From the NCBI RefSeq assembly GCF_000152885.1, contig NZ_CH672404.1, positions 374,291 through 438,290 of the forward strand: a DNA stretch of 64,000 bases, given 5' to 3'. Of this stretch, positions 36,478 to 40,697 are shown one piece after another. The stretch comes from Idiomarina baltica OS145 (lineage in GTDB: Bacteria > Pseudomonadota > Gammaproteobacteria > Enterobacterales > Alteromonadaceae). The notes beneath the pieces are model-generated. The model searched no databases, was not told where the DNA came from, and saw only the letters and a program-made list of their open reading frames with translations. Made by a program: the position numbers and the translations under genes. The number at the start of each line of letters is the position of its first letter. The first letter of the stretch is position 1.

Positions 36478-38187
36478 TTATGCGTTGCGCAAGGTCTGAT
36501 TCAAAAACTCAAGCACGCTGTTAATCGGCATTTTTTGTTTGTCACGGTCACTACGTGATTGATACTCGACCATTTCTTCATCGAGATTACGTTCACCAAT
36601 GACGATTTGATGCGGCACACCGATCAATTCCATATCGGTAAACATAACACCTGGGCGTTCTTTGCGATCGTCGAATAGCACATCAAAACCGGCATCGCGA
36701 AGTTGCTGATAAAGTTCGTTAGCAACTTTTTGTACACGTGCCGACTTATGCATATTCATTGGTACAATGGCAACCTCAAACGGTGCTAACTCATTTGGCC
36801 AGTTGATACCGCGGTCATCGTGGAATTGTTCGATCGCAGCTGCGACAACGCGAGAAACACCGATTCCGTAACAACCCATGGTTAAGGTTTCGTGTTTACC
36901 CGTTTCCGACAATACACCCACCTTCATCGCATTGCTGTATTTCTTGCCTAATTGGAAAATATGACCAACTTCAATGCCGCGCGCAATCTGCAATGTGCCT
37001 TGACCACATGGACTCGGATCGCCTGCAACAACGTTACGAATGTCTTCTACAGCAGAGATTTCAGCATCGCGATCCCAGTTGACCCCAGTCAACCACTGAC
37101 CCTGTTTATTTGCGCCACAAGCAAAGTCTGCTAGCACAGCGGCACTGCGATCAACGATGACCGGCATTGATGCATTAACAGGACCGATAAAGGAGCCGTG
37201 ACAACCCATCAATTTATCGCTATCAAGCACCTCAATGGGCGCTGCGATCTGTGTTAGCTTTTCAGCTTTAATGGTATTCAGCTCGTGGTCCGCGCGCCAA
37301 ACTAACATGACGGCGTCAGCCTCCACTTCATCGCTGGCTTTGACCAAAGTACATTGTACTGCTTGTTGTGCATCGACAGCTAATGGCTGCAGGAAAGCAC
37401 TGACTTCATGACCTGTAACATCATGTACTTGTTTATCTTGACTGGGTTGTGAACGCTCTTTTTTCGGAGCGATTGCCTCTGCCATCTCCACGTTCGCCGC
37501 GTAGTCCGAACCATCAGAGAACGCGATGGCATCCTCTCCTGAGCCCGCTAGGACATGAAATTCGTGCGATGCGTGACCGCCAATCGAGCCTGTATCAGCA
37601 ATAACTGGTCTAAAGTCTAGACCTAAGCGTTGGAAGATACGGCAATAGGCGTCGTACATTTCATCATAGGCTTGCTGCAGTGACTCATCCGTTAAGTGGA
37701 ATGAGTATGCGTCTTTCATCATGAACTCGCGCGCACGCATCACCCCAAAACGAGGGCGAATCTCGTCACGAAACTTGGTTTGAATCTGGAATAGTGTCAA
37801 AGGCAACTGTTTATAGCTACTGACTTCTTTTCTTACCAACTCACTAATAATCTCTTCATGGGTCGGGCCTAACAAGAAATCACGCTCATGACGATCTTTA
37901 ATACGCAACAGTTCAGGGCCATAGTCTTCCCAACGGCCAGACTCTTGCCACAAGTCAGCGGGTTGCACCATCGGCATTAAAATTTCTAAGGCGTTGATAC
38001 GCTCCATTTCCTCGCGTACAACACGCTCAACTTTCTTCAATACACGAAGACCGGTCGGGGTCCATGTGTAGAGTCCCGATGCCACTTTTCGGATCATGCC
38101 GGCTCGCAGCATTAGCTGATGGCTGACAATCTCAGCATCAGAGGGCGTTTCTTTTAAAGTAGATAGTAAATATTGACTGCTGCGCAT
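36478..38187 (-). CDS. proS: Prolyl-tRNA synthetase
   Basis: ProS charges tRNA(Pro). The 569-residue protein is of the bacterial type, with an editing (INS) domain between class II motifs 2 and 3. Seen are the N-terminal [14 protein letters not shown], motif 1 ([18 protein letters not shown]), LLGPTHEE, motif 2 [19 protein letters not shown] and motif 3 [17 protein letters not shown]. It is followed on the same strand by the terminator at 36441 and preceded by trmO, the order known from Escherichia coli. Confidence 0.97.
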
Positions 38188-38262: not shown

Positions 38263-38976
38263 TTACGGACAATAGCGGACAATTTTTTCTACGGTCACTC
38301 CGTTGTCCACAACTCGCCACTTTATATCTAAATCATATAGGCGACTTGCGTAGGTTTTATTGTCAGTTTTGTTCTTTTTGTAGGCGGGACGCACATCAAA
38401 GCTAAGCAATTCAACAATTAACGACTCAAGCTGCGGATAAATCTCTTTTTGCTGCTTTATGAAATGTGCCGCATCGCGAGCAAAAAAGACCGCTAAGCTG
38501 GCGCTAGGTGCTTCGGGTGCGAGTGAACTGCTGGCGTCGTCTATTTTGTCACAATACGGAATATAAGGCTTGATATCAATTAAGGGAGTGCCGTCAACTA
38601 AATCGGCACCGGCGACGACTAAATGAAAGTACGGTTCATTATTAACCGCTAATAATTTAACCGCCGACAAACCGATGTTGTTGGGTCTAAACGGTGAGCG
38701 GGTGGCAAATACGCCGACTTTTTGGTTTCCTCCAAGTCGCGGTGGTCTCACTTGTGCCTGCCACTGTGAGTCTTTGTTGTGATGAAACTGAAACACTAAC
38801 CAAAGATGACTGTGTTGCTCGATTCCGCTGAACGCTGCGGGATAATCGTAATCACCGCAAGGCTTGATGATGCCCTGAACGTGGGTAGCGAGTCCTGGTT
38901 GGCGCGGTACAGAAAACTTTTCAGGAAAAGGTGTGTGTATATGAGCGATGGTTTGGGGCATTAGGTTGTTTGTCAT
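38263..38976 (-). CDS. trmO: tRNA (t6A37)-N6-methyltransferase TrmO
   Basis: TrmO (YaeB/TsaA) methylates N6-threonylcarbamoyladenosine at position 37 of threonine tRNA, using SAM. The 237-residue protein has the N-terminal beta-barrel domain with AHIHTPFPEKFSVPRQPG, LVFQFHHN and VGVFATRSPFRPNNIGLSAV, all family-typical, and the C-terminal domain with LLSFDVRPAYK. A second ATG five codons in is possible as start. Lies 75 bp upstream of proS on the same strand. Confidence 0.94.
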   Translation of the reverse strand: MTNNLMPQTIAHIHTPFPEKFSVPRQPGLATHVQGIIKPCGDYDYPAAFSGIEQHSHLWLVFQFHHNKDSQWQAQVRPPRLGGNQKVGVFATRSPFRPNNIGLSAVKLLAVNNEPYFHLVVAGADLVDGTPLIDIKPYIPYCDKIDDASSSLAPEAPSASLAVFFARDAAHFIKQQKEIYPQLESLIVELLSFDVRPAYKKNKTDNKTYASRLYDLDIKWRVVDNGVTVEKIVRYCP

Positions 38977-39050
38977 TTATCTTAACTGTTAGCGGATTTA
39001 ACTAAATTTTGGTGGTTGGAAAAAATAGAAGCATTGCACTAAAGCTATAA

Positions 39051-39066
39051 AAACTTATCTAAGTTT
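39051..39066. promoter_or_regulatory. Inverted repeat upstream of the sigma-54 promoter
   Basis: AAACTTA-TC-TAAGTTT, 7-bp perfect arms with a 2-base spacer, ending about 27 bp before the -24 element that follows. A candidate activator site, although it is closer to the promoter than most enhancer-binding-protein sites. No protein can be named. Confidence 0.45.
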
Positions 39067-39090
39067 CTGTATTTAAAAGAAAAAATAACT

Positions 39091-39110
39091 TTGGCACACG
39101 CTTTGCTAAA
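39091..39110 (+). promoter_or_regulatory. Sigma-54 (RpoN) promoter
   Basis: TTGGCAC-ACGC-TTTGCTAAA: the -24 GG (39093-39094) and the -12 GC (39105-39106) are separated by the exact 10 bases required, and the flanking bases match the consensus TTGGCAC-N5-TTGCW. It points at the beta-repeat protein gene starting 87 bp downstream (39197). Initiation should occur near 39117, giving an 80-base leader. Confidence 0.82.
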
Positions 39111-39196
39111 TCTTTACTACAACATAACTGTTTAGTTTGACCTGTTCACGATGTTTGGAACGTCAGCTACAAAAATAACATAGAAAGGAAAGCAAC

Positions 39197-39856
39197 ATGA
39201 TGAAAAATAAAGTATGGCCCATAGCAATTTTTTTAGTCGGTGGTTTGACCGTGACTTCAGCAGCTTGTGCGCAAGACGTTGTAAAGCGTTCACATACATT
39301 CAACGTGTCTTCAGATACAGAGCTGAGTGTTGAAGCAGCCGTCGGAACAGTTGAATTCGTGAAAGGCGATATAAACTCACAGGTTGTCGAAGTTGAGCTC
39401 GTTATAGAGGCCAATGATGATAGTTTTTTCTATGGTGGTGGTGATATTAACAGCGTGCACTTAGAGGCCGATCAACACGGTAATGAATTAGAATTAAGTA
39501 TTGAACCGGATGACGAAGAGGTTGAAGTTACTTGGCGTATTACCTTACCCAAAATGAAAGGCGTTGATGCAGAGCTTGGTGTGGGTGAGATGTCTGGTGA
39601 ACTGTATACCACTAATGCCTCTTTTGAAGTGGGCGTGGGTGAGATTGACTTAGTATTGCACGGTAGTGACGTAGAGCGAGTAAAAGCCGAAGCCGGCATT
39701 GGTGACACCCGTATCCGCGGTTCGGTGCGTGGAAACTCGAATCGAGAGCGCGTATTAATGACCTCAGAGAGTGAGTTGACGAGTTCGGGTGAATATCGCA
39801 TTAAAGCGGAAGTCGGAGTAGGCGATATTACCTTAGATTTTGTGGAATTGAATTAA
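39197..39856 (+). CDS. Secreted DUF4097-like beta-repeat protein
   Basis: A 219-residue protein with a signal peptide (KNKVWPIAIFLVGGLTV, cleavage probably after CAQ or ACA near 25) and no Cys in the mature part. It resembles the DUF4097 putative-adhesin fold: five spaced copies of E-x-(G/A)-(V/I)-G-(D/E/T) occur near residues 46, 126, 144, 165 and 205, as expected for turns of a beta-helix. The mature protein is acidic, with DDEEVEV near 105. Function unknown. It is transcribed against its neighbours trmO and the RcsF-like gene, from its own sigma-54 promoter, with AAGGAAAG before the ATG. Confidence 0.75.
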   Translation: MMKNKVWPIAIFLVGGLTVTSAACAQDVVKRSHTFNVSSDTELSVEAAVGTVEFVKGDINSQVVEVELVIEANDDSFFYGGGDINSVHLEADQHGNELELSIEPDDEEVEVTWRITLPKMKGVDAELGVGEMSGELYTTNASFEVGVGEIDLVLHGSDVERVKAEAGIGDTRIRGSVRGNSNRERVLMTSESELTSSGEYRIKAEVGVGDITLDFVELN

Positions 39857-39867
39857 TGTATTGGCGT

Positions 39868-39897
39868 GGCGACAGTTACTGCTTTGGTACTGTCGCC
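39868..39897. terminator. Stem-loop between the DUF4097-like gene and rcsF
   Basis: GGCGACAGT / ACTGTCGCC, perfect 9-bp arms with a 12-base loop, starting 12 bases after the stop of the beta-repeat gene and running into the 3' end of the convergent RcsF-like gene. No U-run. A probable transcript end for the plus-strand gene. Confidence 0.5.
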
Positions 39898-40262
39898 TTG
39901 CCAACGCAACTGACTTGAGTGTAACACCGAGCGCTTGAATCTGTCGGAATATTAAAGCACTGTACAGCGAATACATCTGTCGCATTGAAACGTGCTGCAT
40001 CGTTACGAAGTGCTTGTTGAGCATCTAGAGTTGAAGCGGGGGCGCCACGAAAGGTGGCTTGGCAACTATCTCCAGTAACAACACTCAAGATCTTATGGCG
40101 ATTCGGGTTGAGCTGCTGGTCATGCAGCTCAACTTCGTTGGGGACGACATTGAGGGCTCTTAGAGCAGATTCTTGTGAACCATATTGGTTACCAGTTGAA
40201 CATCCAGCCATCAATGCACTGCAAAACACACCTGCTAAGAGTATTCGAATCCCCAATGACAT
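39876..40262 (-). CDS. rcsF: RcsF-like lipoprotein
   Basis: A 128-residue predicted lipoprotein (ALMAGCST, Cys 21) whose C-terminal half matches RcsF, the outer-membrane sensor that activates the Rcs envelope-stress phosphorelay in enterobacteria. VTGDSCQA corresponds to the RcsF segment of the same sequence type. The four mature cysteines (67, 102, 113, 119) have nearly the spacing of the disulfide-forming cysteines of Escherichia coli RcsF (74, 109, 118, 124), and SCVGKATV matches its C-terminal CIGSAL region. Synteny agrees: proS-trmO-rcsF in Escherichia coli, here with one inserted gene. Whether a complete Rcs relay exists cannot be seen. Confidence 0.78.
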   Translation of the reverse strand: MSLGIRILLAGVFCSALMAGCSTGNQYGSQESALRALNVVPNEVELHDQQLNPNRHKILSVVTGDSCQATFRGAPASTLDAQQALRNDAARFNATDVFAVQCFNIPTDSSARCYTQVSCVGKATVPKQ

Positions 40263-40283
40263 TCTCCAATTAAATACTTTTCA

Positions 40284-40697
40284 CTACTTTATCAAAAACT
40301 CTTCAAGTGCACGACCGTTGTCCAACGCGTTTTGTAGTGCTTTAGGCATACGCCCCTGACCTGTCCAAGTTTTTAACTCGCCGTTTTCGTCTTTAAATTC
40401 ATACTTAGGGGGTTTAGGTGCGCGCTTACGTTTTGGCGATACAAGTTTATCACCACCAATTTCATCTTCTAAAATGTCAGAAATATCAATGCCGGCTTCT
40501 TGCATGTTGCGCTTAAGTTCGGCGACTTTCTGACGTTTTTCTTCAAGTGCTTTTTCTTGTTCGAGTGCGTCTTCTTCACGCTTGCTGATTACATTTGAGA
40601 GTTTCTTTTGAATGTCATATAGCTCGTTTAAATCTAATTCTTTAAGGGCTGCGTTCAAACGACGTTCGTGTGAAATTATATTAATAAACTCGCTCAT
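40284..40697 (-). CDS. hns: H-NS family nucleoid-associated protein
   Basis: An H-NS-type DNA-binding protein of 137 residues from the ATG at 40697 (an upstream in-frame ATG at 40745 is not needed; GGAGAT stands before 40697). The N-terminal half is a coiled-coil oligomerisation domain (about 8-75, rich in Glu, Lys and Leu), a linker with SPKRKRAPKPPKY follows, and the C-terminal DNA-binding domain has the diagnostic TWTGQGRMPKAL. H-NS silences AT-rich DNA; its own upstream region (40698-40822) is AT-rich. Confidence 0.93.
   Translation of the reverse strand: MSEFINIISHERRLNAALKELDLNELYDIQKKLSNVISKREEDALEQEKALEEKRQKVAELKRNMQEAGIDISDILEDEIGGDKLVSPKRKRAPKPPKYEFKDENGELKTWTGQGRMPKALQNALDNGRALEEFLIK

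Follow-up and report, generated by a model that had tools for sequence, protein, structure and literature searches.

An exported Toastrack protein of Idiomarina baltica is a probable unlinked member of the PspF regulon

In the phage-shock (PSP) response, PspA holds the activator PspF, and stress frees PspF for sigma-54-dependent transcription, as described in the available part of PMC9239133. The same part gives only two known targets for E. coli PspF, the psp operon and pspG, and describes the DUF4097 domain of LiaG as extracellular. A survey of PSP systems (PMC11237479), in the portion accessible to us, lists Toastrack as a PSP partner and reports PspF operons with Toastrack from some Alphaproteobacteria and a few spirochaetes. 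It connects Toastrack with the phage-shock network chiefly through neighbouring genes and gene fusions, and proposes for it a platform role that is inferred to be intracellular. Shewanella pspF under ArcA offers no precedent, as far as the accessible part of PMC2262068 goes. Among the open-access matches listed, taken by their titles and the starts of their abstracts, none described a Toastrack, DUF3192 or DUF2884 gene of these bacteria as controlled by PspF.

We analyzed a 64-kb stretch of DNA (the window) from a 2.77-Mb assembly (G000) that is 98.9% complete. The gene at 39197-39856 appears to be an unlinked member of the PspF regulon that provides an exported arm of the phage-shock response, a reading to which we assign a probability of roughly 80%. 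The promoter, the psp-type site with its conservation, the fold and the export signal presented below were computed. The sequence-only reading that preceded this work had regarded the gene as independently regulated; it looks instead as if it belongs to the PspF (phage-shock) regulon.

The open reading frame, on the + strand, encodes a protein of 219 residues which, from homology and the predicted structure, is putatively an exported, acidic, stand-alone Toastrack (DUF4097-type) beta-helix protein. Residues 1-25 resemble a signal peptide with an AxA ending at residue 25, in agreement with the sequence-only reading, and the predicted mature protein has a pI of 4.2. That reading had also counted five E-x-G-like repeats, of which four are strict xGxG(D/E) repeats and the fifth is degenerate (VG, residues 49-50). 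We aligned 28 of the 31 orthologues of the first set, leaving out two near copies (L059 and L061) and one with an unclear start (L081). This alignment shows no variation at V49, at G50 or at the glycine pairs 128/130, 146/148, 167/169 and 207/209, and all 28 proteins are acidic. A home-made rule detected a hydrophobic start and a cleavage-like motif in 28/28, with a strict AxA in 19/28. As to a possible uncleaved anchor of the LiaG type, this motif pattern tends to speak for cleavage. A lipoprotein reading of C24 was rejected, since this residue varies among the orthologues and inspection by eye showed no lipobox.

The protein has no Pfam match at E ≤1 and no NCBIfam match. At the same limit, 13 of the 28 aligned orthologues match DUF4097, eight match LiaF-like_C and four match Toast_rack_N, with a best E of 1.1e-4. 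The predicted structure has a middling pLDDT of 73.5 and a pTM of 0.72. Its best match among solved structures is 4QRK (CLOSPO_03726 of Clostridium sporogenes, a member of another phylum), with a VIA-align Z of 14.1 over 174 residues at 2.9 Å and 20% identity, and a Foldseek E of 4.1e-8. The next matches are 4YGU (Z 9.5), 7MUC chain AM (9.3), 3PET (9.1), 3LJY (8.5) and 4OPW (8.4); 7MUC chain AM belongs to the Legionella Dot/Icm core complex and has the helix part in common with our model. RTX domains and serralysins matched at Z under 5. By its modeled fold, the protein is a Toastrack (DUF4097-type) beta-helix, and the structure prediction, which had been suggested as a check, thus replaces the earlier description of the protein as unknown. 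The titles of 3PET, 4OPW and 4YGU (putative adhesin) and of 4QRK (putative cell adhesion protein) would suit a secreted adhesin unrelated to membrane stress. However, structure titles are annotations, the available part of PMC11237479 cites 4QRK and 4OPW as Toastrack examples, and the psp-type control described below points to stress, so that we regard an adhesin as decidedly unlikely.

The nearest named relatives of the protein come from Idiomarina sp. MD25a (93% identity), an Idiomarinaceae MAG (93%) and I. fontislapidosi (87%), in a listing that may omit records of the window's own genome. The gene was matched in 31 of 98 genomes, its own included, comprising 19/19 of the genus and 12 others. 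An order-wide search yielded 41 matches in 39 of 394 genomes. Loci were obtained for 30 of these matches, namely 7 repeats of the first set, 16 new orthologues and 7 weak matches that are treated as distant, and 11 weak matches without loci were left out.

The gene is located between trmO (38263-38976) and rcsF (39876-40262), which were both identified by Pfam on the − strand; the − strand gene at 36478-38187 is, as we take it from its sequence, proS. In E. coli K-12, proS, trmO and rcsF are contiguous, and the sequence-only reading was correct in describing this order for enterobacteria, as far as E. coli K-12 represents them, and in placing the gene on the opposite strand between trmO and rcsF. 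This position is kept throughout the genus, and rcsF is the next gene and convergent in 18/18 congeners as well as here, which would fit an envelope-stress module with rcsF that senses outer-membrane stress together with the Rcs system. Outside the genus, however, two of the 12 first-set orthologues lie beside trmO (L070 and L079), ten have other neighbours, and the rcsF cluster is the next gene in none of the 12; the promoter travels with the gene, whereas the neighbour does not. Therefore, the module with rcsF proposed in the sequence-only reading was ruled out as a highly improbable arrangement, although the envelope-stress role in the same proposal fits. The adjacency is a trait of the genus, and rcsF is an incidental neighbour. 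A strong hairpin just 3′ of the stop codon (39861-39904; −27.6 kcal/mol, z −6.7) overlaps the 3′ end of the convergent rcsF. It has no T run and received no call in the terminator scan, and we consider it a candidate two-way terminator.

Upstream of the gene, the −24/−12 element of a putative sigma-54 (RpoN) promoter (TTGGCACACGCTTTGCT, 39091-39107, + strand) reads TTGGCAC-ACGCT-TTGCT. The GG at 39093-39094 and the GC at 39105-39106 give the correct spacing, and the element attains the full score against the sigma-54 consensus; the scoring weights were set by us. The exact core TGGCAC-N5-TTGC occurs once in the window, at this element, and matches with at most one mismatch number 5 in the window versus 6.3 in shuffles. 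Genome-wide there are 10 exact cores, and 10 in the reversed control. Because these counts are close to those of the shuffled and reversed controls, the motif by itself is no proof, and conservation is the test. An element scoring at least 12 was found upstream of 44/47 orthologues (29/31 in the first set and 15/16 in the later set). The sequence-only reading had described a near-ideal sigma-54 promoter with the right spacing and an 80-base leader, and both are upheld here from the sequence. The conservation just given also runs counter to a refuting outcome that it had named, a lack of conserved GG/GC elements before orthologues. The expected transcript start at 39117/39118 is 79-80 bases 5′ of the open reading frame, and the leader of about 79 bases (39118-39196, + strand), as read from the sequence, would carry the ribosome-binding region AGAAAGGAAAG before the ATG. 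The 3′ part of the leader is kept in the three nearest relatives. A simple consensus scan found no sigma-70-like promoter in 38900-40320 (2.6 in shuffles).

The genome has a pspF gene that is divergent from pspA, pspB and pspC, all of which were assigned by NCBIfam equivalogs over their cut-offs. They are followed by genes for a 454-residue protein and a TIGR01620 family protein. PspF matches TIGR02974 with 547.5 bits (cut-off, 443.55) and is 58% identical to E. coli PspF in an alignment that includes the C-terminal end. PspF is present in 25/25 orthologue-bearing genomes checked. A search of the whole genome for pspG (PF09583) gave no match. Across the genomes, pspG was matched in 0/31 of those with the Toastrack gene and in 6/67 of those without it, but this lack of co-occurrence may reflect lineage only because the pspG genomes belong to other families.

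We built a psp matrix solely from the psp promoters beside pspF in 30 genomes, including the window's own, which gave 38 unique sites. These promoters contain a pair of TTAGTNTATTTNRCTAAY-type sites with a spacing of 20 bp. Outside the training set, 20/22 psp regions scored at least 10 (the region of L197, which scored 3.7 and whose locus is perhaps cut by a contig end, was counted as a miss), and the PspF site that precedes pspA in E. coli K-12 scored 19.9. A score of 10 alone is not rare, with the 95% point of the best score at 10.1 in 351 AT-rich windows of 200 bp. In the window, a PspF-type enhancer site (TTAGCGGATTTAACTAAA) at 38989-39006 on the + strand (best register 38988-39005 on the − strand) scores 14.3 on its better strand, and the psp sites of the same genome, which are part of the training set, score 15.5 and 15.6. 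The site precedes the sigma-54 element by 102 bp. Across the four nearest genomes, the site and the −24/−12 element are conserved, whereas most of the intervening spacer is not. A second tandem site in this promoter is weak (2.2), and the IHF-like match in the spacer is poor (3 mismatches). Judged by the psp matrix, 38989-39006 is the likely activator site of the gene.

The sequence-only reading had placed the site of an enhancer-binding protein elsewhere, at a 16-bp inverted repeat (AAACTTA-TC-TAAGTTT, 39051-39066). The repeat does exist, but its significance does not hold. When the 220-bp intergenic region was shuffled with its composition kept, 14% of the shuffles contained an equally good one, and an alignment read by eye shows that it is absent from the three nearest relatives, one of which has another palindrome and two none. 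It was therefore ruled out as an activator site and probably arose by chance. It sits in the part of the spacer where many relatives have an IHF-like site.

The two elements were examined together in a joint test that required a sigma-54 score of at least 12 within 330 bp and a psp-type site of at least 10 located 70-125 bp before the core, with both score thresholds set by us. The test was passed by 35/47 orthologues in 9/16 genera, with the passing sites 78-119 bp before the core. Within the first set, 21/31 passed (15/19 in the genus and 6/12 outside it), and 14/16 passed among the orthologues unused before. The joint arrangement is also present where the gene neighbours differ. As controls, 0/7 distant profile matches passed, as did 2/309 other genes of the same loci (open reading frames of at least 100 residues); one of these two is divergent from an orthologue and has a common site with it (L078), and the other is the orthologue L081 itself. 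Column-shuffled matrices gave 0-6 passes in 47, with at most 2 for 39/40 matrices.

The 12/47 orthologues below the joint threshold speak against control by PspF. In L055-L057, L069, L070, L075, L079 and L169, the sigma-54 element is present and the psp-type sites are weak (6.8-9.5); L055-L057 and L069 are the four of 18 congeners with weak sites. No psp-type site was found in the tested range of L076, but the psp region of its own genome is also low (7.3), and thus the matrix may not fit this lineage. L071, L077 and L163 have no sigma-54 element of score 12, yet PspF is encoded in their genomes (G034, G054 and G347). Such cases would favour a reading in which another sigma-54 activator (flagellar, nitrogen or other) drives the gene and the PspF-like site is coincidental, and the genome does have six strong matches to the activator domain, PspF among them. 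On the other hand, comparison with the shuffled matrices shows that the psp matrix detects the site specifically, the site is found before 14 of the 16 previously unused orthologues, and the 20-bp tandem layout is kept across relatives. Moreover, of the 10 exact cores counted genome-wide, only that of this gene has a psp-type site; the other nine have none, the next best score being 4.0. Another activator therefore appears unlikely.

The tandem layout and the IHF-like sites were evaluated in 40 of the 47 orthologues (L071, L076, L077, L079, L081, L159 and L163 were left out). Relative to the best site, a weaker second one is most frequent at a distance of 20 bp, the spacing of psp promoters. 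Partners scoring at least 4 were found at 20 bp in 12/40, at 19 and 21 bp in 6 each, and at any other distance between 10 and 32 bp in at most 2. IHF-like sites with at most one mismatch are present between site and core in 29/40, compared with 8.0 in shuffles. A test of helical phase, made with 27 hand-chosen distances (about one for each close cluster), is exploratory and carries no weight; the 14 distances outside 86-92 bp gave p 0.013 at 10.5 bp, with a broad peak at 10-11.5 bp.

The site at 38989-39006 is just 13-30 bases upstream of the start codon of trmO, and it might accordingly belong to this divergent gene, with the sigma-54 element using a different, unseen enhancer. However, six orthologues that are not beside trmO (L072, L073, L074, L078, L080 and L081) still have a psp-type site at 78-119 bp, which makes this explanation exceedingly improbable. 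Because of the same short distance, binding of PspF there could also affect trmO.

We searched the whole genome for the pattern of site, gap and core and obtained 2 matches, the psp operon and the gene described here. The reversed control also gave 2. The same pair, the psp operon and the Toastrack gene, was recovered in three further genomes (G009, G010 and G014). A narrower pattern, whose gap range fell short of the window's own site, gave 0 matches versus 2 in the control. The argument rests on which genes are matched and not on their number.

Ten further pattern matches from other genomes, picked by eye, were read. Those in G019 and G027 are upstream of DUF2884 proteins (assigned by Pfam in G019 and by its place in the DUF2884 search in G027), that in G015 is upstream of a DUF3192 lipoprotein, that in G073 is upstream of a PGPGW membrane protein, and those in G007 and G035 are upstream of small secreted proteins without a Pfam match. 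Nothing clear was found at the matches in G011 and G020. The match in G030, a genome in which the search for the window gene found no counterpart, is upstream of a beta-repeat lipoprotein (L212:1686-2510, + strand), with a psp-type site of 11.5 and a sigma-54 element. This lipoprotein resembles the profile of the orthologue alignment (hhalign 92%, E 5.5e-7) and has no Toastrack match in Pfam. The match in G034 is upstream of a second PspA; this further PspA gene (L209), which is on a contig other than that of pspF, has a sigma-54 element and a psp-type site of 12.2.

The DUF2884 and DUF3192 families were then surveyed with an upstream range of 420 bp. Both elements were found at 11/30 DUF2884 loci (L216, L217, L223, L226, L229, L230, L232, L233, L235, L236 and L245), with loci available for 30 of 42 matches; the family is absent from all 19 genomes of the window's genus searched. 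For DUF3192, the best copy per genome has both elements in 2/30. Second copies in the window's genus have them in 7/9, the own genome included and those of G006 and G013 left out. One of the nine (L208) was already among the pattern matches, and hence 6/8 are independent. The second copy of the own genome is outside the window, in L276 (G000:C9:455500-459500, match 457703-458008), with a sigma-54-like element TTGGTGCGATTTTTGCT and a psp-type site of 15.4 at −81. Taken together, we think it fairly probable, with some reservation, that in these marine bacteria PspF commands an exported phage-shock layer scattered over the chromosome, consisting of the periplasmic Toastrack protein and a DUF3192 lipoprotein and, in other genera, of a Toastrack-like lipoprotein and proteins of the DUF2884 family. 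This layer might take the place of pspG. A larger PspF regulon is thereby predicted, with its genes named.

The following course of events can be proposed for the Toastrack gene, in which we infer binding by PspF, induction by membrane stress, the location of the product and its docking role. In E. coli, PspA releases PspF under inner-membrane stress, and the same release would initiate the response here. Freed PspF would bind the site at 38989-39006, the DNA would bend, aided in many relatives by IHF, and the complex of sigma-54 RNA polymerase would be opened at 39091-39107 to produce a single-gene transcript. The product would be exported by the Sec pathway and lose its signal peptide after A25, and in the periplasm it would take up the fold of a small, acidic beta-helix of the Toastrack type. 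The outer-face location is argued from the signal peptide in this protein family. The protein would most likely serve as a protein-docking platform on the outer side of the inner membrane under stress, by analogy with extracytoplasmic LiaG, which may act in this way in the Bacillus Lia/PspA system.

If this is correct, the membrane-stress response acts at either face of the inner membrane, with Toastrack as a PSP partner on the periplasmic side, contrary to the intracellular inference in the available part of PMC11237479. An unlinked cis-regulatory connection would also be independent evidence for a part of Toastrack in the phage-shock response. Our analysis would place Toastrack outside the cytoplasm in these species and provide a system of one gene and one domain for testing what it does.

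Compared with known systems, the promoter resembles those of the psp operon and pspG in enterobacteria, where a sigma-54 element and a psp-type site are spaced about as far apart as here; the 20-bp tandem and the IHF-like site of that layout also occur in the Toastrack relatives. Like the Toastrack gene, pspG stands alone outside the psp operon, and PspF controls it, according to the available part of PMC9239133, but it belongs to the PF09583 family, whereas the product here is predicted to be an exported beta-helix. LiaG and YvlB of Bacillus subtilis, the DUF4097 partners of PspA/LiaH, similarly tie a DUF4097-type domain to a PspA-type stress response. However, LiaG is membrane-anchored and encoded in the liaIH-liaGFSR locus under the control of a two-component system, whereas the present protein has a predicted cleaved signal peptide, sigma-54/PspF-type control and no linkage to psp genes. 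The Toastrack genes of some Alphaproteobacteria and a few spirochaetes are also linked to PspF, but as neighbours within operons. In our case, the link is a shared cis-site at a locus apart from the psp genes, in bacteria whose pspF-pspABC locus is of the classical kind, and the protein is apparently exported. The regulator is known and the fold is known; what appears to be new is their pairing, its place and its layout.
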